42,079 bases of DNA, taken from positions 1-42,079 of the forward strand of contig JAAYUV010000065.1 in assembly GCA_012517475.1 (NCBI GenBank). The letters run 5' to 3'. How positions within the stretch are numbered: position 1 is the first letter of the stretch; each line of letters starts with the position of its first letter. The DNA is from Peptococcaceae bacterium. GTDB lineage: Bacteria > Bacillota > Desulfitobacteriia > Desulfitobacteriales > Syntrophobotulaceae. The position numbers and the translations under genes were made by a program. Shown here one piece after another: positions 15,487 to 37,210 of the stretch. The notes beneath the pieces are model-generated. The model was not told where the DNA came from. It worked only from the letters and a program-made list of their open reading frames with translations, and ran no database searches.

Positions 15487-15539
15487 TAAAAAAAGAACTG
15501 CCGAGGAGACTACCCTGCCGACAATTCCCTGTCAGTTCT
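15487..15539 (-). terminator. Terminator overlapping the end of the DUF4139 gene
   Basis: On the minus strand AGAACTG (15533-15539) pairs with CAGTTCT (15494-15500), followed by seven T. The upstream arm lies inside the last codons of the DUF4139 gene. Confidence 0.55.
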
Positions 15540-16721
15540 ATATCTTAATCTTATTTTTTCTTCACTGTTCGGTTTTACTTTTAACGAAATTTCAATATGA
15601 TTGGAAGACATCCTCCTATAAATGTGGGATGAAGAAATAATTAGACCATTTGGTTGGATAAAAGGCTTCATTTTCACTTCAATTTCTTCTTGCCTGTCGT
15701 TTCTTATCCTGTATTCATATTCTTCCAGATCATACCCGCTCAGTTTCTTTTGATCAACTTTTTCCCAGGTACAAAAGACGTCAGAGGCTTTTCCTAAATT
15801 AATCTGGATATTTTTCCGAAGAGCGGTATATTCCATTTCTCCTTCTTGAATTAATTCAAGCGCGGTGTCCTTTCTATCTTCTTGAAATATTTTAACTGTC
15901 CCTTTTGGCAAAGGGTATCCCGGGCTATGAAGCGGGTAAGGATCAAATTCAAGTATCATTTTGGGCCTATTTGCATTTTCTGAATCAAATTCATAATACT
16001 TTTTGTATTTCAGGGCTGGAATGGAACAAAAGTTTATCTGTTTATCCTGATTGTTTTTTAAAGTGGTATGGTGTTCCAAAGAATAAGTAAACTGATCTGC
16101 CGTCCCGTTGACTTCTCCCCCAATCAGCTTGATCCTTGCATTCTCATAAGTTGTTCCGGAAGAATTGGAAATATTGATCCACCCTACAAGTTGACATTTG
16201 TTTTCCTTAAGCTCCATGACATAATTTGCTGTCCATGTAAGTCCTTTGGTAATGTAGGATACTCCTACTTCTTTGGATTGTACGGACTTTACCTTCCAGA
16301 GTAATGCCGGTTTGGTAATCAAACCATGAGCAAGTTTTGGCAGAATTAATTCTTCGGACGGATTAATGATGATTTTTTTGGTATGTTTGTTTTCAAGCAC
16401 AATACCGCCCTTGGTACTAAGCAAAGTACATTCTGTTTTTGTATTGGTTGCTTTATCATGAAGAAAAACGGTATGATCGATATAGTTATCCAGGATTTTC
16501 TTTTTATCGATAAAATCATAATCGTAGCTATATTCGTATATCTCCAAACCATTTACAAGCAGGGACTCTGTTTCAATCTGCTGTGCGACATCAAGGTACT
16601 GAACCATATGGTCATCCTGCGGAATGATCAATTCGCGTTTTTCTTTGACAATTCCAAAACCGTTTTTATAAATGGAGAGAACGATTTCTGTTGCATCTTT
16701 CATCGTGGAAATAATTGCCAC
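15510..16721 (-). CDS. DUF4139 domain protein, 403 aa
   Basis: A soluble, beta-rich protein without signal peptide or membrane helix. Residues about 1-90 resemble the N-terminal region of DUF4139/DUF4140 proteins (early NGFGIVKEKRELIIP strand), and the stretch VGVSYITKGLTWTANYVMEL...GWINISNSSGTTYENARIKLIGGEVN (about 155-210) is the family hallmark. The C-terminal third is repetitive in beta-strand pattern. Function is unknown for bacterial members. I start at GTG 16721, 7 nt after GGGGGGT; a TTG at 16751 is in frame but lies before that site. The putative large RNA ends 128 bp upstream, on the same strand, so readthrough into this gene is possible. Confidence 0.72.
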   Translation of the reverse strand: MAIISTMKDATEIVLSIYKNGFGIVKEKRELIIPQDDHMVQYLDVAQQIETESLLVNGLEIYEYSYDYDFIDKKKILDNYIDHTVFLHDKATNTKTECTLLSTKGGIVLENKHTKKIIINPSEELILPKLAHGLITKPALLWKVKSVQSKEVGVSYITKGLTWTANYVMELKENKCQLVGWINISNSSGTTYENARIKLIGGEVNGTADQFTYSLEHHTTLKNNQDKQINFCSIPALKYKKYYEFDSENANRPKMILEFDPYPLHSPGYPLPKGTVKIFQEDRKDTALELIQEGEMEYTALRKNIQINLGKASDVFCTWEKVDQKKLSGYDLEEYEYRIRNDRQEEIEVKMKPFIQPNGLIISSSHIYRRMSSNHIEISLKVKPNSEEKIRLRYRTDRELSAG

Positions 16722-16848
16722 GCTATTACCCCCCACCCTATATGGTAACAATACTATATTTCCATTTTATTCCAAATCGAAGAAATTATTACTGCTATGA
16801 GGATGATCTTTCGCAAAATCTTTACTTCCATATAAAAAAGCAAATAAT

Positions 16849-16881
16849 AAAAAAAACCCTTCGTTCTAAACGAAGAGTTTT
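16849..16881 (-). terminator. Intrinsic terminator of the candidate large RNA
   Basis: Arms 16853-16865 and 16869-16881 pair at 12 of 13 positions around a 3-nt loop; the minus strand continues with eight T (16856-16849). This is among the strongest terminators in the window, and no coding gene ends before it. Confidence 0.85.
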
Positions 16882-17371
16882 GAGTTAATATTAAAATCCC
16901 GCAAAGTCCTCTTGAGCACAGGGTCTAATAAGTTAACGAAAGCCACCTACTTCATTCATTAAAGACACACGTTCTTAACCGGTTCTAACGAAAACACTAT
17001 ACACCTTTCTGAAGAATCATTGGACTTTCTATTTGGTGTACCTTCGACACAAAAGAAACGGGCTTAATGTTATTTACTGTACGGGACCGATTTATTTACC
17101 TCTTACACAAAACTTGGGCGTTTAAACCTAAACTCAAACGGAACACAATAAACGTGGAAAGGATTTACTAAAAACGGAATTGGTAAACTCACAACTACGA
17201 GGAACTTTGCGGGAAACTTCTCTAGACAACGAAAGCCATCCTTGGTGGGTGGCTTTGAATCCGATCGGCTCATCATTACCATTCTCTAACCTGCCTCGGA
17301 TTAAAACCAGACCTTGTCAGTAGAAAGTTAACACTGAAAATTGAACCTCTTTATTATGTTGTACCGTTTAT
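16849..17371 (-). ncRNA. Candidate large structured non-coding RNA, about 520 nt, class unknown
   Basis: No frame of coding quality exists on either strand, yet the unit is bounded by a consensus promoter (17378-17406) and a strong intrinsic terminator (16849-16881). Directly visible pairing on the minus strand: a long-range helix joining 17214-17199 to 16911-16897 (15 bp with one bulged T, mostly GC), closing a 290-nt domain; hairpin 17337-17333/17321-17317 (5 bp); helix 17302-17296/17264-17258 (7 bp) extended by GGC/GCC; and hairpin 17256-17250/17238-17232 (7 bp). The motif GGCTTTCGTT occurs twice, once at each side of the closed domain. It does not match tmRNA, RNase P, 6S, T-box or cobalamin aptamers by eye. 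OLE or ROOL-like RNAs are similar in size, but I cannot align to them from memory. It could also be a leader of the DUF4139 gene. Confidence 0.6.
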
Positions 17372-17377
17372 GATTTA

Positions 17378-17406
17378 AGTTTAAATCCACTTTCCGAAAA
17401 TGTCAA
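17378..17406 (-). promoter_or_regulatory. Sigma-A promoter of the candidate large RNA
   Basis: TTGACA (17401-17406) and TAAACT (17378-17383) on the minus strand with a 17-bp spacer. The expected start is near 17371. The region upstream is very AT-rich, as for strong stable-RNA promoters. Confidence 0.7.
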
Positions 17407-17621: not shown

Positions 17622-17694
17622 TTAGATAGAAACACGCTATGGCAAATTGTAATTGCAATTTTTACATTGGCATAATAGTTTTGGGGGTTATTAT

Positions 17695-18274
17695 ATGACC
17701 TATCATGCAGGAGCTCAAGCTATATTTGCTCAAAACTTAACCAAACGTTTCGGATCTTTTACGGCTGTGAACAACATTTCTTTTGCGGTTTCCAAAGGGG
17801 AATGTTTTGGCCTTCTAGGGCCCAACGGCGCCGGGAAAACTTCCATTGCCAGGATGATTATTGGTTTTTCTCCAATTTCGGAAGGGAAGCTATTGGTTCT
17901 CGATCAGGACATTCATACTCATGCACGTGAGGTAAAAGCGCGAATTGGCGTGGTAGCTCAGGAGGACAACCTTGATCCGGAGCTCACTGTCCTGGAAAAT
18001 CTTTTGGTTTACGCCAATTATTTTCGTTTGCCCCGAAATGTTGCCCGGGAAAGAGCAGAGGAAATTCTAAAATTTATGGATTTGACAGATAAGGCCGGTG
18101 CTGTCGTCGATGAGTTATCAGGCGGTTTAAAAAGACGTTTGACCCTGGGCCGTGCCCTCATTAACCGACCCGAGCTCTTGATTCTGGACGAACCGACTAC
18201 CGGACTTGATCCCTATGCCCGGCAAACTAACCGGTGAAACTTTACAGGGTTCAGGTGATGAAGCGGAAGAGTAA
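17695..18274 (+). pseudogene. Truncated ABC-2 exporter ATPase gene (internal deletion and frameshift)
   Basis: The frame from the ATG at 17695 (GGGGG site upstream) encodes an ABC-2/NodI-type ATPase with Walker A GPNGAGKTS (about residues 43-51), Q-loop VVAQEDN, signature LSGGLKRRL and Walker B LILDEPTTGLDP, then stops three codons after PYARQ at 18237. The H-loop and the C-terminal third are missing. In the +1 frame the DNA continues as a plausible family C-terminus (GKLTGETLQGSGDEAEE, stop at 18272-18274) just before the permease ribosome site. The simplest reading is loss of roughly 100 codons, not a multiple of three in net effect. The 180-aa product should not hydrolyse ATP normally. An assembly error cannot be ruled out. 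Confidence 0.75.
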
Positions 18275-18286
18275 GGGGGGCATCCC

Positions 18287-19093
18287 ATGACAAAAAATAA
18301 AAATCTATTGCAGGGATGGTATAGAAAACCGGATATTGATATAGGGCTTACCTACCGGGTTTTTTATCGGAACTTAAAAGTATTTCTGAAAACCTGGAAA
18401 GCCAATATTATGTTTAATTTTTTGGAGCCATTGCTCTATCTCTGGGCCATGGGACTAGGCCTGGGAATGTATGTATCACAGATCAATGGTCTTTCCTATC
18501 TGGAATTTTTAGCTCCGGGTCTGATTGCCTCTTCTGCCATGTTTTCCACAACTTATGAGGTCACATACAATAGTTATACCCGAATGGCCAGAGAAAAGAT
18601 TTTTCATGGCATGGTTGCAACCCCTGTAAGTATGGATGATGTGGTTTTAGGAGAAATCCTATACGGCACATTTAAGGGAGTCTTGTATGGCTTGGTTTTC
18701 TTTATCGTAGTTGCTTTTTTTGGCATTGTGCATTCTCCTTTTGCCATCTTTATTCTTTTTCCCCTCTTTTTGATGACCGTGATTCTTTCCAATCTTTCAC
18801 TCATCTGGACAAGTTTGGCCCCGAACTATGATTCTTTTGGCTATTTTTTTACTCTGCTGATTTCCCCCATGTTCCTTTTTGGAGGAATCTTTTTTCCTGT
18901 AGAAAGCTTACCTGCGGGAATTCGTTTTCTTCCCTGGTTCACCCCCCTTTATCATGCGGTGGAAGCGATTCGGCCCATGGTTCTGGGCCTGTCGGATTAT
19001 TCTGTATCCGGACACCTCGTCTGGCTGATTGTTGTCACGGTTGTTACCCTCCCCTTTCCGTTGACAATGGTTAAAAATAAGCTGATCCAATAA
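18287..19093 (+). CDS. ABC-2 type exporter permease, 268 aa
   Basis: Six hydrophobic helices are visible (about residues 45-65, 75-95, 125-150, 157-178, 188-208 and 240-260), and the PMFLFGGIFFPVESLPAGIRFLPWFTPLYHAVEAIRPM segment (about 193-231) is the characteristic ABC-2 (NodJ/DrrB) motif. AAGGGGGG lies 6 nt before the ATG. It follows the ATPase remnant by 12 bp and would have been its partner. With that ATPase truncated, the exporter is likely inactive unless another ATPase substitutes. Confidence 0.85.
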   Translation: MTKNKNLLQGWYRKPDIDIGLTYRVFYRNLKVFLKTWKANIMFNFLEPLLYLWAMGLGLGMYVSQINGLSYLEFLAPGLIASSAMFSTTYEVTYNSYTRMAREKIFHGMVATPVSMDDVVLGEILYGTFKGVLYGLVFFIVVAFFGIVHSPFAIFILFPLFLMTVILSNLSLIWTSLAPNYDSFGYFFTLLISPMFLFGGIFFPVESLPAGIRFLPWFTPLYHAVEAIRPMVLGLSDYSVSGHLVWLIVVTVVTLPFPLTMVKNKLIQ

Positions 19094-27252: not shown

Positions 27253-27414
27253 TAACCCCTTGATATTCCCGTTCAAGCTTTAGCTCTGCAAGGCGGTGAA
27301 ATTTGCGTTAGGTTATGCCTTGTTTTCGACATATCCTGTTGACCTTCTCGAGTTGTCTCCAACTCTCCGCGGCAGCAATCCATATCCTTGCGGTAGCCTC
27401 ACCTACCGAGTATT
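27253..27414 (-). ncRNA. M-box (ykoK) Mg2+ riboswitch aptamer
   Basis: Read on the minus strand, the segment has the conserved M-box modules in order: TAGGTGAGGCT with the following ACCGCAAGG (about 27406-27385), TGCTGCCG (about 27376-27368), GAGAAGGTCAACAGG (about 27351-27337), a variable hairpin, TTTCACCGCC, and GCAGAGCTAAAGC near the 3' end (about 27290-27278). In the family, Mg2+ binding stabilises the fold and terminates transcription of Mg transport genes. It is followed by a terminator and then by the MgtE_N/CBS and Nramp genes, which is the expected context. Confidence 0.92.
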
Positions 27415-27429
27415 ATTTTCTTTTATGCT

Positions 27430-28645: not shown

Positions 28646-31600
28646 TTAGATGAAAATTTCTATGAGATGATTTTGTCCGTCATCATGTAAAACAACCGGA
28701 AAATCAGCTTGTCTCACGCCATCAAAACATATGGATTTCTCTTCATGGCTATGAAGCTGAACCCGGATCGTATATCTTGAACCTTTAAAACGGTATTCTA
28801 CAGAAAATTCCTGCCAATGGAGCGGTGCGCAAGGGGATAGAGTGAGCATGTCATTCTCAATTTTTATTCCAAGTATGCCCTCCAGAATAACCTGATACAT
28901 CCATCCTGCCGCTCCGGTATACCAGGTCCAACCTCCCCTGCCGATATTGGGCTGGACAGCATAGACATCGGCCGCCATAACATAGGGTTCTGCTTTATAT
29001 TTTGCTGCTTCCTGACCTGTTCTGGAATGGTTGATGGGGTTAAGCATATTCACCAGTTCAAGGGCTTTATCCCCTTCCCCCATTTTCGTATAAGCCAATG
29101 CCGCCCATATTGCGGCATGGGTATATTGACCTCCGTTTTCCCTTACCCCAGGTATATAACCTCGTATATAACCCGGATTCTTCTCGGTTTTATCAAAGGG
29201 CGGCGTAAACAGTTTGAGAATGGCTTCGTCTTTATCCCACAAATATCGTTCCATGGCTACGATGGCATCTTTAGCCCGGTTTTCTTTTGCACATCCGGAA
29301 ATCACCGCCCAGGATTGGGCAATCGCATCAATTTGGCATTCGGTATTGGAGATGGATCCAAGCGGTGTTCCGTCATCGTAATACGCTCTGCGATACCATG
29401 AACCGTCCCAGGCGTTTTTATCCATATTTTGTGTGAGTTCATTGACAATGCTCTGATACCGTTCAACTCTCTCAGAATCCCCCTGTTTTTTACAGATTGG
29501 TATAAAATCTTTCAGGGTAGACAATAAGAACCATCCCAGCCAGACACTTTCCCCTTTTCCCTCCCTACCCACGGCAGAAAGCCCATCATTCCAATCCCCT
29601 GTACCAATCAGGGGAAGCCCATGTTCTCCGAATTTCAGACTATGGTCTATCGCTTGGACACAGTGATGGTAAACCGTTGCATATTGATCTGTTACGGCGG
29701 GAATGGCATATTTTTCATCTTCATCAGCACCCAGCGGTTCCTGATAAAGGAACGGAGTTTTTTCCAGGAGAATGCTATCATCACCGGTATGAATAATATA
29801 GTCTGCGGTCACATAAGGCAGCCACAATAGATCATCCGAAAACTTTGTCCTGATTCCCTTTCCTTTTTCCGGATGCCACCAATGTTGGACATCTCCTTCC
29901 CGGAATTGCCTCGAACTGTGTAAAAGGATCTGGTGTCTTGTAATTTCAGGTTTTAATATAGCAAAAGACATGACGTCCTGCAGCTGGTCACGATAACCGA
30001 AAGCTCCTCCTGATTGATAAAAAGCGGAGCGGGCCCAGATTCTGCATACCAGGGTCTGATATATTAGCCAGCGATTTGTGATAAGGTCCAGGGTTGGTTC
30101 AGGAGTCCTGATTTGGATCGCGGATAAAAGATCATCCCAATATTTCAAAACTTTTTGCAATAACTCATCATACATTTTCGGGGTGTTCCATGTTTTTAAT
30201 AACGATACTGCTTTTTCCTTATCCGTTTCATCCCCGATCAGGAAATAAACCGTTTTTTCTTCTCCGGGCAGTAACGAAATTTCAGTCTGGATTACACCGC
30301 AGGGATCCATCCCATTGCCGGTTTTCCCTGATAATTGATCCGTAAGCAATCCCGCAGGTTCCTGAACCCCTTGGTTAACTCCTAAAAAATCTTTTCGATC
30401 AGTGGTAAAAGATTTGAATCTTCCGCCAAAAGAACATAGAAAAGCTACCCTGCCAAAAAATTCTTCCTGATAGACATTTCGGCAGAAAATGATCTGATCT
30501 TGAATTTCTGTAACAAGATAAGGTGCATTCTGCTCCCGGTTTACTCCTAAAACCCACTCCAAATAGTAATATGCGGAAAGGACTTTCTCTGAATCGGAGA
30601 TATTGGTTAGTTTTAATCTAACCACTTTCATATTTTTTTCTATGGGAACAAAGATCGTAGTCTCTTGCTTGATGCCGCTGCTAAGGTGTTCAAATACGGA
30701 ATATCCCTGACCGTGCCTGATGACATATGTTTGCATGGTTGGAACAGGTTGGGGTACCGGCGACCAAAATCTCCCTGTCTTTTCCTCTCGCAAATAGATT
30801 GCTTCTCCGCTGGTATCCAGGAGAGGATCGTTAGACCACGGAGAGAGTCTATATTCACGGCTGTTTTGAGACCAGGTAAAACTTGATCCCGAATCAGAGA
30901 CAAGTGTACCGAAATGGGGATTGGCAATAATATTAACCCAGGGCAAAGGAGTAATATGCTCTTTATCCCGGAAAATCACATATTCTTTACCGTCTTGGCT
31001 AAATCCCCCGTATTCATTAAAGTAAATCAGCTTATTTTTTATCTCGTTCCTTTTTAACCCGGTATCATCTATCCGTTCCTGGTCTTTTACCTTTTTATCA
31101 AAATCTTTTTTAGGGGGAAAGGTTTGTTCCGCTATTCGGACAACCTTACCGGCTTGATTAATCAGGGAACCGTTTTCACCGGAAAAGACGATCCGTGCTG
31201 TTGTATGGAGTAAAACTACCATATCGTTGGGAAGTTGATCCCTTTTTAAAAGAAAAACTCCTCCGGGTTTATTCACGAATTTACGGACATGACTGATTCC
31301 GACTTTTTCCTGAATCATTTCGTGAATGGTTTGATAATACCCTGTTTTATCTTCATTTAAAATGACCAGATCAATAAACAATCCTTTTATTTCCCAATAT
31401 TCATGGATTTTTAACATCTGTTCAACCAGCTTAATCTGACTATGCTCCTGAATTTTCAAAAGCACAATGGGTAAATCTCCGGAAATTCCGTAAGGCCACA
31501 GTGAAGATTGTCCGCGTTGATTATTCTTAATCTGAAAACTGCGGCGAACAGGCCCGGGAAAAACCACTTGGCTGGCTAAACTTGAAATCATATTGGCTTC

Positions 31601-34600
31601 TTCAAAAGACAGTCCGAGATTGGTTAACTCCATGAGGTTTTGGGACCAGGCCAGCTCTTTGGCCTGATTAATGAGATAACTGCTGCGGTATTCTTCTGCA
31701 AGGTTCAACACAGACTTTTTGCTGTCCCCTACACCGGTCAGGAAATAGACCGAAACTGTTTTGCCAGGATTAATTCTTATCCTTAGCCGTAAACTCATAA
31801 TCGGGTCCAGAACCGCACCGGCGGAATTAGACAAAGGTTGGTTAAAATCCATCGCTTTGGGGTTAGCGAGAGTCCTCCCCCGTCCAATAAATTTCATCCG
31901 GTCCGTTTCATATTCAATTTCCCCCAGTTTCTCCCCTTCGAAAAAGAAAGTATGCATCGCAAAAAATTTCTTTTTATCCTGGTGTCTGGGTCTTCTAAAG
32001 GCGATAAGGGTATTGTTTTCGAATCTGGTTTGAATAAAAAGCTTACTAAAACCAGGATGTGCCATATCAGCTTTTAGCTGGTCCAGCACGACTTCTAAAT
32101 AACTGGTAAGTTGAATGTCTCTGGAATATTGGCTGTGATTGGTCAGTGATACTTTTCGAACTTCCATAGGGTCTTCAGGAGTAACAAAGATTTCTGTCTG
32201 GGTTAATATATTGCCGTCCCTGCGGGAATACCGGACGTTATTGGGAAAACAAGTGACTTTATAGTCGTCGCCAGGATGATCAAACGGCTTGGACGTAACC
32301 GACCAAACATTACCGGAATTCAAATTTTGAACATAGATAAATGTTCCATACATATCCACTGTAGGATCTTCCCGCCAGCGGGTAACATGGATGTCATTGT
32401 ATTGACTATACCCTGATCCCGACAGCGTGATCATAACGGAGTATTCCCTGTTGGATATAAAAGCTGTTTTTGGCATCCTGGTATCAGGCCTGTAATAAAT
32501 CACCGGTTTTTCCGCCTGTTTCCGGGATATTGCAGGAAATTCCTCTTCTTTCAATTCTTCCATAATTGGATTAAAAGTATATTCTTTTAAAGGCACTTGT
32601 TCCTGCAGCAACAGCTCAATCGACTTGATAACCGGTTCCCGGTGAAAACGCTGCTGCATCAGGTTATTATTCAAAACATTATTTAACGAGATAAAACTCA
32701 TACCCTGATGGTGAGACATATAGCTTTTTACCACGCTGAATTCCTTATGATAGGGTACTCTGGTTTTTGTAAAGTCTATCGCTTCAAATAATCCATAAAT
32801 CCCGTTAAATCCTTTTTTCTTCATTTGTTTCAGATTTTCCATACTGCTTTCGAAATTTACCGCCAGGGCCATAAAAGTTGAGTATGGGGAAATAACCATA
32901 TCTTTGGATAAACCTCTTTTGAGGCCCAATCCGGGTACACCAAAGGCCTTATACTGGTAGTTGTTTTGAATATCGAATGAAAAAAAGCCTGATTCTGAAA
33001 TTCCCCAGGGTGCGTGACCCTTTTGGGAATATGATTTTTGAATCCGCAGAACAGACCGGTATGATTCATCCAATAAGGTTCCGCGGTAGTTTTTAAACAG
33101 GATTAAGGGCATAAGAAACTCAAACATGGTTCCGCTCCAGGCGACAAGGCAGCGGCTGCCTTCGATCCGGGTAAGGGGACGCGACAGCTTGAACCAATGC
33201 CCTTCCGGAACGTCTCCCTTGGCAATAGCAAACAAACTTGTCTGACGGGCTTCTGAAGCCAGCAAGTCATAATAGGATTTATCCAACTTTTGTTCAGTTA
33301 AGTTATACCCGATGGAAAAGAGTTTTTTACCCGAATCAAACAAAGGTTTGAAATCCATTCCATAGGCAATATGGTGCAGCCTGTTGGCTGTTCTTTTGGA
33401 TACGAATAAGGTTTTCGCGGTATTTTTTATTCCCTTTTTTATGAACGGCATTAGGTTTTTCTGTATATTGGTTCTTTTTCCCCTGAGTATATCAACATAC
33501 TCGTTTAATAACTCCCGGGAACTCAGGTACTGTATCGTTTGTAATGGTTCCGGAAGGTCAGGATATTCTGCAAAAGGATAATACGATTGTATCGTCTTTC
33601 TGATATCGCCTAACATTCTGGTCAGGGCAGCAGCCCAGAATTCAGCATGATCGGGATTAACATTCTTATCCTGAACGTTTTCAATATCAAAATGAAAACG
33701 GTTTAGTTCTTCCTGCCATTTGACTATAAATTGATAGCTACCGTATAGATCAGATTTTTGGCTGTTATCCATGAAGACAATGAGCTCTTTTTGGAACTCT
33801 TTCATTTTTGCCTTCAGATCGTTCTCTGTTTGATTGCCCGTGGAAGAGTTTTCGATGAGATTGCATGTATCCATAAAACCTTCCCAATAAGCAGGTTCCA
33901 GAAAGGATTTTTGCGGTATTTCCATGATGCCGTTCTTGAGGGCTATTAAATAAGTTGCGAAATTACCGCTGTCCACTGTTGAAATATAAATAGGGTATAA
34001 AGGTTCCAGATTTTTTGTATTGTACCAGTTATAAATATGACCGTTCCATTTCGGCAGTTTTTGGATGGTGTTAAGGGTATGGCCAACTTTGCCCAGCATT
34101 TTACAAACAGATATATAGCCAAGATCCCAGGCTGCAAGATTAGCCAGCATGGCCAGTCCGATATTGGTCGGAGATGTGCGATGCGCTACTCCTTTATAGG
34201 GTTCCAGCTGAATATTATCCGGAGGAAGATAACTGTTCTCCCGGTTAACAAAGAAATCGAAATAGGCCCATACTTGCCTTGCCCATTTTCTCAATTCTTT
34301 TCTGTCTTCGGCACTAATTTCACCGACATGAGCCGGGTATGGCAAACTCAGTCTGTAAGCAATGGCAGGCGAAGCCACCCAGGTTATAAGGAACAGGGTA
34401 AGAAGTGTTCCAGTAAACAGTGAGCTATATAAATAACCGTCCACAAATAATAAACTGAGCAGAACACCCGGAGCCATACGTGAATAAAAAGTTTTCGTAT
34501 TAAGATCAAAAGATTTTTCCGAATCGGCTGCGGGTTCCCATTCTAAAAGATGACGTTTGGTGATGAACTGTCTTCCTATACTGCGAATCACCGCATCCAT

Positions 34601-37210
34601 CTGAATATAGGCCTGATAAGGTAAAACAGCTAAAGCAAAAAGAGCTTGAAAAAGGCCAAGACGAATTTCATACTTGAATATCCGGAAGGTTAAGCTCCGG
34701 TCCAGTATTCTTTCAGTGAGATTTAGAATGAGGGGCAATATCAAAGTCAAAATGACCAAACCTGCCAAAAGACTGAAGATACTTTGCAAACTGGTAAAAG
34801 CCAGCAAAAGAATGATGAACTGAAAAGGTGCTTCTAAACTCCTTCTCAGATTATCAAGGATTTTCCAGCGTGAAATAACCGAAAGGTCTTTGTTGAAGAG
34901 GTAACGGGCAATTTGCCAATCCCCTCTGATCCAGCGATGCATTCTTTTGGTATAAGAAAGATATTTGGATGGATAACCGTCAAATAATTGTATATCGGTA
35001 ACCAGACCTGTCCGGGCATGTAATCCCTCAATCAGGTCGTGACTTAAAATTGAATTGTCAGGGAAAACATCTTTCGTCTTATCATGGAAGACCTGAAGAT
35101 CATAAATCCCTTTTCCTGTAAAAATTCCTTCACCGAATAAATCCTGATAAATATCGGAAATGGCACAAGTGTACGGGTCAATTCCGGCTGTGCCCGTATA
35201 CATCGCCGAAAAGGGTGAAGCAAAGGCTCCGGCTGCAGTTAATCCGATACGCGGCTGTATTACTCCATAACCCGTAACGATTTTATGCTCATCTGCTTTT
35301 GCTTTCTGCATGGGATGAGCAATGGTGCCAATTAATTTACGGGCTGAGTCTCTCGGAAGGATGGTATCAGAATCCAAAGTAATGACATAACGTACATTTT
35401 TGAGCAATTCCAATTTGCCGGCTTTAATATAATAGCTTGTGTCCCCGTCATCTAAGAGATAACGGTTAAATTCAATCAGCTTTCCTCTTTTGCGTTCCCA
35501 ACCCATCCAGGCTTTTTCTCCGTCATTCCACTTTCTGGCACGATGAAAGAAGAAAAATTTATCGCCGTATTGTTTATTTAATTTTTGTATTCCATTAATG
35601 CCGGCCAAAACAATGGCATGATCTTCAGGCATCGTTTCTTGCCTGGCATCCGAAAAGTCACCCAGTAAGGCAAAATACAGGTTTTTTTCCTGATTGGACA
35701 GAAAATGAATTTCTAATTGTTCCAACAGTTCATTTACTTTGTTAGGATTGTTGAATATAACCGGAATCACTACCACTGTTTTATTTTCTTCCGGAATCCC
35801 TTCTCCAAAGTCAAGTTTGGGAAGAAAACTAGCCGGCAATATATTGCAAAAAAACCGGTTAACAAAATAGACCGCCATTCCATTAATCAGGACCAGCGAA
35901 GCAAAAGCGGTGAGAAGATATGTTCCTAAAGACCTTTCCCCTATTTCGACCAGACCATTTCCCCAAAAAAGGAATACGGAAAAAATCGTTAATAGAATAA
36001 TCGACCCAAGGTAAGACAATGTGGAATGCTTTTTATGAAAACAGAGGAGTTCATGAAAAGATTGACGGACTCTGCCCCAATTATTCGTAAGTTCTTTTTC
36101 CAGCAAAATTCTGCCCATGCCGAATAAATAATAACCTACATGGTTAAACGGGGACTCCTGAGATGACAGGGCAAGACTTTCCAGGGTTTTGGCAACAGTT
36201 AATTCCGAAACGTAATACTTGCCGGCCAAGGTCTCGATAACATGCCTGTATTGATCCCTTGAATCAAAATCCATTTTAGAAAAAACCGCGGCGGGGTCTC
36301 CCTGCAGGATCTGCTGTACCAAACTAACCCCTTCAAAAAACTCAGACCAATTCTGAGAATTAATCATTTTGATGGCTGAAATAATATTACCCATCAAAAC
36401 GCCGTAAGAAGTAAGATAATATTGTTCAGAGCGAATGACCTTTTCAACAGTCATATTTTGTTTGCTTGCAACGTTATCCAGCCAATTAAGCAGTAGCTTG
36501 GCGTCTGTGCCAAGTTCCTTCAGTTTCTTGGCAACCCTTTCAATATACACTGAAGAAAAGGTCTTGCTTAAATCCAATTCCTGCTGAGAAAAATCGATTT
36601 TGCTGTTCCCTTGGCCCAAAACTGAATTAATCCAGCTTTCAGCGTATGTTCTTTCTTTTTGAATATGGAGAATACGTTCAACCTGGTAAAAGATTTTTTC
36701 CAGCATGATGATTTTCAGCATAATAGGAACAGCCCATATTTCCGCAGATGAAAGCGGCGATTCGGTCTGATATTTGGCAATAAAATGTCTCAGCGCCTGA
36801 AAATCCAACTCTTCATTATTGTTTTTTACAAATTCGGACACAAGCAAATAAACCCGCGGAAAACCGGCAAAATCCCCCCCGGAGAGGTACTGAAGTTTAG
36901 ACTCATATTGTTTGGACAAATCCTCAATCAGCTCATTCATCAACTCATTGATCAGATAATAATTATCCAGATACCATTCTGCTGCGGGAATAATATCGTC
37001 TGTTTTGTAATAGAACTCATTAATCTTAGAATAGGAATTTTTTATGAAGGAACAGTATTCTCGAATCATGGGCAGAAGACTTTTACCGGTATTTTTAAGA
37101 CCCAGCCAATTATGGAATTGAGCAAGATCTGTTGCATAAACCATGATATCATCTCTTCTATCCATATGATCAAGGTTTATCTTTGGGAATGGTTTCTCTG
37201 TGATCTTCAT
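28646..37210 (-). CDS. NdvB-type cyclic beta-glucan synthase (GT84 + glycoamylase-like + GH94), 2854 aa
   Basis: A giant membrane enzyme. Residues about 1-390 form the soluble N-terminal region; helices at about 397-420 and 432-455; then a GT84-type glycosyltransferase with DSDT (about 612), HDLIEGLHARTG (about 715) and RMHRWIRGDW (about 755); more helices at about 797-870 and 910-955. Residues about 1290-1510 are a glycoamylase-like domain (SYMSHHQGMSF). Two carbohydrate-binding GH94 N-terminal-like modules (about 1560-1850 and 2070-2330) precede a GH94 phosphorylase domain with GTGDWNDGLSAVG (catalytic Asp region, about 2537) and GGWTWYTGAAGW (about 2745). In rhizobia and Brucella this architecture makes cyclic beta-1,2-glucan, with the GH94 part controlling ring size. 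Length matches those enzymes. The ATG at 37210 has only a weak GGGG site. Product and export in this organism are inferred. Confidence 0.88.
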   Translation of the reverse strand: MKITEKPFPKINLDHMDRRDDIMVYATDLAQFHNWLGLKNTGKSLLPMIREYCSFIKNSYSKINEFYYKTDDIIPAAEWYLDNYYLINELMNELIEDLSKQYESKLQYLSGGDFAGFPRVYLLVSEFVKNNNEELDFQALRHFIAKYQTESPLSSAEIWAVPIMLKIIMLEKIFYQVERILHIQKERTYAESWINSVLGQGNSKIDFSQQELDLSKTFSSVYIERVAKKLKELGTDAKLLLNWLDNVASKQNMTVEKVIRSEQYYLTSYGVLMGNIISAIKMINSQNWSEFFEGVSLVQQILQGDPAAVFSKMDFDSRDQYRHVIETLAGKYYVSELTVAKTLESLALSSQESPFNHVGYYLFGMGRILLEKELTNNWGRVRQSFHELLCFHKKHSTLSYLGSIILLTIFSVFLFWGNGLVEIGERSLGTYLLTAFASLVLINGMAVYFVNRFFCNILPASFLPKLDFGEGIPEENKTVVVIPVIFNNPNKVNELLEQLEIHFLSNQEKNLYFALLGDFSDARQETMPEDHAIVLAGINGIQKLNKQYGDKFFFFHRARKWNDGEKAWMGWERKRGKLIEFNRYLLDDGDTSYYIKAGKLELLKNVRYVITLDSDTILPRDSARKLIGTIAHPMQKAKADEHKIVTGYGVIQPRIGLTAAGAFASPFSAMYTGTAGIDPYTCAISDIYQDLFGEGIFTGKGIYDLQVFHDKTKDVFPDNSILSHDLIEGLHARTGLVTDIQLFDGYPSKYLSYTKRMHRWIRGDWQIARYLFNKDLSVISRWKILDNLRRSLEAPFQFIILLLAFTSLQSIFSLLAGLVILTLILPLILNLTERILDRSLTFRIFKYEIRLGLFQALFALAVLPYQAYIQMDAVIRSIGRQFITKRHLLEWEPAADSEKSFDLNTKTFYSRMAPGVLLSLLFVDGYLYSSLFTGTLLTLFLITWVASPAIAYRLSLPYPAHVGEISAEDRKELRKWARQVWAYFDFFVNRENSYLPPDNIQLEPYKGVAHRTSPTNIGLAMLANLAAWDLGYISVCKMLGKVGHTLNTIQKLPKWNGHIYNWYNTKNLEPLYPIYISTVDSGNFATYLIALKNGIMEIPQKSFLEPAYWEGFMDTCNLIENSSTGNQTENDLKAKMKEFQKELIVFMDNSQKSDLYGSYQFIVKWQEELNRFHFDIENVQDKNVNPDHAEFWAAALTRMLGDIRKTIQSYYPFAEYPDLPEPLQTIQYLSSRELLNEYVDILRGKRTNIQKNLMPFIKKGIKNTAKTLFVSKRTANRLHHIAYGMDFKPLFDSGKKLFSIGYNLTEQKLDKSYYDLLASEARQTSLFAIAKGDVPEGHWFKLSRPLTRIEGSRCLVAWSGTMFEFLMPLILFKNYRGTLLDESYRSVLRIQKSYSQKGHAPWGISESGFFSFDIQNNYQYKAFGVPGLGLKRGLSKDMVISPYSTFMALAVNFESSMENLKQMKKKGFNGIYGLFEAIDFTKTRVPYHKEFSVVKSYMSHHQGMSFISLNNVLNNNLMQQRFHREPVIKSIELLLQEQVPLKEYTFNPIMEELKEEEFPAISRKQAEKPVIYYRPDTRMPKTAFISNREYSVMITLSGSGYSQYNDIHVTRWREDPTVDMYGTFIYVQNLNSGNVWSVTSKPFDHPGDDYKVTCFPNNVRYSRRDGNILTQTEIFVTPEDPMEVRKVSLTNHSQYSRDIQLTSYLEVVLDQLKADMAHPGFSKLFIQTRFENNTLIAFRRPRHQDKKKFFAMHTFFFEGEKLGEIEYETDRMKFIGRGRTLANPKAMDFNQPLSNSAGAVLDPIMSLRLRIRINPGKTVSVYFLTGVGDSKKSVLNLAEEYRSSYLINQAKELAWSQNLMELTNLGLSFEEANMISSLASQVVFPGPVRRSFQIKNNQRGQSSLWPYGISGDLPIVLLKIQEHSQIKLVEQMLKIHEYWEIKGLFIDLVILNEDKTGYYQTIHEMIQEKVGISHVRKFVNKPGGVFLLKRDQLPNDMVVLLHTTARIVFSGENGSLINQAGKVVRIAEQTFPPKKDFDKKVKDQERIDDTGLKRNEIKNKLIYFNEYGGFSQDGKEYVIFRDKEHITPLPWVNIIANPHFGTLVSDSGSSFTWSQNSREYRLSPWSNDPLLDTSGEAIYLREEKTGRFWSPVPQPVPTMQTYVIRHGQGYSVFEHLSSGIKQETTIFVPIEKNMKVVRLKLTNISDSEKVLSAYYYLEWVLGVNREQNAPYLVTEIQDQIIFCRNVYQEEFFGRVAFLCSFGGRFKSFTTDRKDFLGVNQGVQEPAGLLTDQLSGKTGNGMDPCGVIQTEISLLPGEEKTVYFLIGDETDKEKAVSLLKTWNTPKMYDELLQKVLKYWDDLLSAIQIRTPEPTLDLITNRWLIYQTLVCRIWARSAFYQSGGAFGYRDQLQDVMSFAILKPEITRHQILLHSSRQFREGDVQHWWHPEKGKGIRTKFSDDLLWLPYVTADYIIHTGDDSILLEKTPFLYQEPLGADEDEKYAIPAVTDQYATVYHHCVQAIDHSLKFGEHGLPLIGTGDWNDGLSAVGREGKGESVWLGWFLLSTLKDFIPICKKQGDSERVERYQSIVNELTQNMDKNAWDGSWYRRAYYDDGTPLGSISNTECQIDAIAQSWAVISGCAKENRAKDAIVAMERYLWDKDEAILKLFTPPFDKTEKNPGYIRGYIPGVRENGGQYTHAAIWAALAYTKMGEGDKALELVNMLNPINHSRTGQEAAKYKAEPYVMAADVYAVQPNIGRGGWTWYTGAAGWMYQVILEGILGIKIENDMLTLSPCAPLHWQEFSVEYRFKGSRYTIRVQLHSHEEKSICFDGVRQADFPVVLHDDGQNHLIEIFI

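Follow-up and report, generated by a model that had tools for sequence, protein, structure and literature searches.

A probable stand-alone RNA gene of Desulfitobacteriales with a conserved long-range helix enclosing a variable loop

What is encoded by the roughly 520 nucleotides that separate a DUF4139-like gene (15510-16751, a weak Pfam match) from an ABC transporter pair (17653-19093) in a genome of the Peptococcaceae? The window, by which we mean the whole stretch of 42,079 nucleotides that was analysed, had been read in a preliminary description as holding here a large, structured non-coding RNA, transcribed from its own promoter to its own terminator and closed by a long-range helix. As that description had it, no coding frame was found between the flanking genes: 16849-17406 contains no ORF of at least 80 amino acids. 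A sigma-A-type promoter, TTGACA-17-TAAACT (17406-17378), and an intrinsic terminator, a 13-pair hairpin (16881-16853) followed by eight T residues (feature span 16849-16881), are both present, and both lie on the minus strand. Between them they delimit a predicted transcript of about 520 nucleotides (16849-17371, minus strand), the ends of which are placed from the sequence. The ATPase ORF of the adjacent transporter pair (17653-18237, plus strand) encodes 194 amino acids compared with 334 in the homologue of a sister genome (L174), and its C-terminal end looks truncated, by either deletion or assembly.

The proposed closing helix, hereafter the clamp, is present as well. Its 5' strand, UUUCCCGCAAAGUUCCUC (18 nucleotides, 17216-17199, minus strand), pairs with its 3' strand, GAGGACUUUGCGGGA (16911-16897, minus strand), through 15 base pairs with one bulge. 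Taken alone, the window copy gives modest evidence for this structure, with an MFE fold z-score of -1.4 and a longest perfect long-range run of 11 bp, a length reached among 60 shuffles (mean 8.3, maximum 11). That the feature exceeds chance is shown by its homologues, since promoter, helix and terminator recur in constant order in dozens of genomes and the helix covaries.

Because both clamp strands were almost invariant in the first homologues, further copies were sought with a pattern that reads either strand, a true gene appearing as two opposite-strand matches a few hundred bases apart. Homologous loci were found by paired-strand pattern or blastn in about 55 of the 74 genomes of Desulfitobacteriales (our own count); blastn gave matches in 19 of 61 relatives. 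The RNA is present throughout the Desulfosporosinus genus group (30 of 30 genomes, often with two or three copies), and further carriers belong to Desulfitobacterium-like and CEB3-like genera, to genera g17, g18, g19 and g22, and to seven genera within the family of the window. At the sensitivity of pattern and blastn it was not seen in g4, g5, g7, g11 (window's family), g14, g21, f3 or nine class-level outgroups. Among the matches listed from a species-genome collection (118 DNA stretches), convincing pairs came from Desulfosporosinus species, Peptococcaceae records and a few Bacillota bins. A search of 398 Bacillota genomes from outside the order, at one mismatch only, returned only matches with no partner strand to pair with, and several of these fell in what looks like coding sequence. 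Genomes with the RNA have one to three copies. Two tandem copies within about 1 kb were observed in some Desulfosporosinus genomes (L014, L046/L186 and L125).

Covariation of the clamp, which measures 15-17 bp across loci, was assessed in 46 distinct loci, with L164 and L168 excluded from the helix counts. Pairing was retained in 95.9% of cells, compensatory double changes were found at 6 of 17 pairs, and the covariation score was reached by none of 500 shuffles; when the register was slid, pairing fell to 35-58%. Thinning the set to 18 sequences across genera left 94.4% pairing, seven pairs with double changes and, again, 0 of 500 shuffles. At 94-96% pairing in both sets, the long-range helix of the preliminary description thus passes the covariation check that had been suggested for it. 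Clear double changes include UCCCGCAGAGUUUCUCC/GGAGAAACUCUGCGGGA in genus g19, AAAAUU/AAUUUU in a Dehalobacter-like genus and GAGCUCC/GGAGCUU in a Desulfitobacterium-like genus; about ten appear independent when counted by genus, a hand count rather than a phylogenetic test. A tree-based null applied to 34 Desulfosporosinus copies left a single marginal pair, which belongs to the terminator hairpin, the other helices being invariant in this genus. As invariant helices leave such a test powerless within Desulfosporosinus, this result is not evidence against the clamp. Sequence conservation in the clamp goes well beyond the needs of pairing, and the helix has accumulated G-U pairs, as an RNA helix is expected to.

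The signals for transcription are conserved together with the clamp. Promoter scores of at least 10 out of 12 were obtained at 60 of 62 loci (shuffled mean best score 8.6), and a terminator was found at all 62, closely behind the 3' clamp strand. The promoters of relatives (TTGACA, then TATACT or TATAAT) stand at a matching distance, about 190-200 nucleotides before the clamp, and nearly all Desulfosporosinus copies have the exact consensus TTGACA-16-TATAAT about 200 nucleotides before it. At loci that lack the 5' domain described below, the promoter is found about 55-65 nucleotides before the clamp; promoter and clamp therefore move together. When close species are compared, the flanking sequence, ahead of the promoter or beyond the terminator, has mostly diverged more than the RNA itself. 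A conserved promoter and terminator thus surround a conserved, covarying structure, the arrangement by which a stand-alone structured RNA gene is recognised, and the central proposal of the preliminary description, a non-coding RNA gene that has a promoter, a terminator and a closing helix of its own, is borne out.

Which other parts of the transcript are structured? Upstream of the clamp lies a 5' hairpin domain (type A, 17217-17350, minus strand), which was aligned in 13 relatives and is present in most but not all; it is absent from the Desulfitobacterium-like and CEB3-like genera. The domain comprises a hairpin, AAAGCCACC / GGAUGGCUUU (17232-17256, minus strand), found in every type A relative, and a stem, AAUCCG..GGC / GCC..CGGAUU (17258-17302, minus strand), that relatives also have, with wobble or variant pairs in it. 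In type B a GCCACC/GGUGGU-type hairpin takes the place of AAAGCCACC / GGAUGGCUUU; the 5' domain is family-specific, yet a second stem is kept, as is a hairpin of the GCCACC/GGUGGC type. Type B domains fold better than shuffles (z -2.2 to -5, the one exception being a copy with an assembly gap), while type A domains fold more weakly against theirs (z -0.1 to -2.4). Of the further local helices that had been proposed besides the clamp (at least three), the 5' hairpin and the AAUCCG/CGGAUU stem accordingly hold, and those of the interior are not conserved.

The loop enclosed by the clamp (16912-17198, minus strand) is variable and appears mostly unstructured. Its fold z-score is +0.7 in this copy, and mean values of +0.9 for type A, +0.2 for type C and 0.0 for type B are no better than those of shuffles. 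When the interior was folded to a consensus over the genera, no helix other than the clamp emerged. Loop length is 170-870 nucleotides in measured loci, with copies up to about 970, an approximately fivefold variation that in places stems from simple-repeat expansion; the loop is poor in C, evolves fast and is not conserved in sequence between genera. Across lineages UUUU is depleted and UUCAG enriched, UUAGUU/GUCAGU is repeated in type B, and Desulfosporosinus loops contain expanded simple repeats, (UUAG/UCAG)n among them. Large expansions of this kind, of tandem or simple repeats, for example (TTAG/TCAG)n in the DNA, were observed in the loops of L115, L164, L021 and L227 and differ between close species. 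Only a few loop motifs recur: GUAGGUGGCUUUCGUUAA (16933-16950, minus strand; GUAGGUGACUYUCGUUAA in an alignment of relatives), GUAGGUGAC near the 3' end of the loop, shared by the window's family and genus g19 of the other family, and CAGAUUGRCCC in the loops of several genera of that other family. The description of the RNA as ornate and highly structured therefore has to be given up, because the enclosed domain has a mean z near 0 and no conserved interior fold, and structure is confined to the clamp, the optional 5' hairpin domain and the terminator. Nor do the homologues reveal a degraded protein gene, which had been named as an outcome that would overturn the RNA interpretation. Among them, ORFs are conserved neither in position nor in length, and loop length differences between them are not multiples of three.

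As the preliminary description had suspected, the RNA falls into no known class. Rfam 15 at gathering score gave no family over the locus or over homologous copies from other genera, including ROOL, GOLLD, HEARO, raiA, group I and II introns, RNase P, tmRNA, T-box and riboswitches; we regard low-threshold matches at these loci as chance. Within the window Rfam recognises an M-box and a tRNA only, both away from the RNA locus. This M-box magnesium riboswitch (27259-27417, minus strand) precedes genes for an MgtE_N/CBS-domain protein and an Nramp-type transporter. Elsewhere in the window, a single ORF of 2854 amino acids (28646-37210, minus strand) has, judged from its sequence, the look of a cyclic beta-glucan synthase with glycosyltransferase domains. 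OLE (RF01071) was rejected as the identity of the RNA, having no match at the locus and a separate locus of its own both in this genome (G000:C2:11917-12504) and in 34 of 61 relatives. 6S RNA (RF00013) was rejected likewise: it lies on contig G000:C96 here and at a different locus in relatives too. No description of the RNA was found in the open-access literature, which is weak evidence, and the main texts of three published genome-wide RNA searches make no mention of the genera that bear it.

Comparison with known RNAs shows partial likenesses. Like the new RNA, OLE is a large stand-alone RNA of anaerobic Bacillota, of similar length and in the same order. OLE, however, is densely structured and conserved in sequence over about 600 nucleotides (PMC12054373, PMC9723947), whereas the new RNA is conserved in the clamp only. 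ROOL and GOLLD, too, are large, independently transcribed bacterial RNAs whose function is unknown, and form intricate homo-oligomers (PMC12286853); nothing in the new RNA points to such a structured interior. 6S RNA also stands alone and has an open region enclosed by a closing stem, but at about 180 nucleotides it differs in length as well as in sequence. Sequestering RNAs of the CsrB/RsmY type combine repeated short motifs, an otherwise fast-evolving RNA and a strong terminator, features that the new RNA shares. Its motif, however, is not of the GGA type and varies between genera, and we know of no long clamp helix in the CsrB/RsmY group.

The neighbourhood of the RNA bears on how it might act. 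No gene is common to all neighbourhoods, which makes action in trans the most likely mode; as read from sequence, conservation of the neighbours is largely limited to single genera, with thiamine genes and an SDR in Desulfosporosinus, cobalamin genes in the Dehalobacter-like genus and other genes elsewhere. At L174 and L175, in two genera, apparent remains of group II introns (5' sequence and maturase fragments) lie directly behind the RNA's terminator hairpin, with no Rfam match above cut-off; insertion behind terminators is known for class C introns. The downstream gene is co-directional at 31 of 33 loci, which counts against action in trans and would fit either an RNA that regulates the following gene in cis, as its leader, or a messenger that encodes a small peptide. 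Both are highly unlikely: the downstream genes belong to many families that differ by genus, rather than to the one family expected of such a leader, the orientation is opposite at two loci, every locus has its terminator, and the reading frames and loop lengths described above argue against a messenger. The bias in orientation remains a caveat for the preferred trans-acting RNA, yet it indicates no single regulated gene.

Other explanations turn on the clamp itself. Long conserved inverted repeats around variable DNA, in one to three copies per genome, might be thought to mark a DNA element, either the terminal repeats of a small mobile element or recombinase sites. Conservation does not end at the repeats, however, but takes in the promoter, 5' domain and terminator outside them; the loop has a single orientation, loci are syntenic within genera, and the G-U pairs of the helix are RNA-like, leaving this reading very little probability. 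Blastn against phage and plasmid records gave no match to the RNA, and a viral, phage or plasmid origin was rejected, since five single matches in viral contigs were all without the partner strand. A long, nearly perfect duplex that closes a large loop between leader and terminator also resembles a processing stalk, such as the stalk of ribosomal RNA precursors that RNase III cuts, and cleavage of the clamp could free the loop or the ends as a mature RNA. We consider this improbable, as the would-be product, the loop, evolves fastest, the clamp is the most conserved part and RNase III needs little sequence. Less easily dismissed, if still unlikely, is a base-pairing or sequestering RNA in which the clamp would only stabilise a transcript that presents a single-stranded loop with repeated motifs, or in which its CCUCC and GGAGG strands would open to Shine-Dalgarno or anti-Shine-Dalgarno sequences. 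The unstructured, C-poor loop with its UUAGUU/GUCAGU repeats in type B and its enrichment of UUCAG across lineages would suit such a sponge, as would the presence of CCUCC and GGAGG in the clamp strands. Against this, the loop motifs vary between genera, a 15-17-bp duplex would open rarely, and clamp-like sequence elsewhere in the genomes shows no clear excess beyond the RNA's own copies (judged by eye against a reversed-pattern control).

Comparison of the homologues thus supports a predicted RNA gene with a conserved promoter and terminator and a covarying clamp of 15-17 bp around a large loop that varies and is mostly unpaired; a folded 5' hairpin domain is an optional addition. We lean towards reading it as a free-standing, trans-acting non-coding RNA, vertically inherited in Desulfitobacteriales and duplicated in Desulfosporosinus, whose duplex docks a conserved protein and which serves as a scaffold or carrier with a flexible loop. 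Given its near-consensus promoters, the RNA would be transcribed strongly and probably constitutively. It would act in trans, and the duplex, conserved in sequence, would form together with the motifs beside it the putative binding site of the conserved protein. The loop would then be a tolerated or useful flexible arm, free in length and sequence; an interior without a conserved fold is unusual for a scaffold and counts against this part of the reading.

More tentatively, the RNA may represent an undescribed and abundant class of clamp RNA that, together with a conserved protein, constitutes a new ribonucleoprotein. Its sole constrained part would be a sequence-specific duplex around loops of about 170-970 nucleotides, and it would be ancestral to Desulfitobacteriales and present in every Desulfosporosinus-group genome examined. 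To our knowledge, large bacterial RNA classes whose function is unknown are few, and each has opened a way to new biology. Rfam lacks the present one, the hosts of which are culturable, environmentally important anaerobes, among them sulfate reducers and organohalide respirers. With such hosts, near-consensus promoters and a copy number of one to three, it lends itself to tests of expression and to knock-outs. The unusual layout, a near-invariant duplex around a freely evolving loop, raises for these organisms the question of what reads the duplex.
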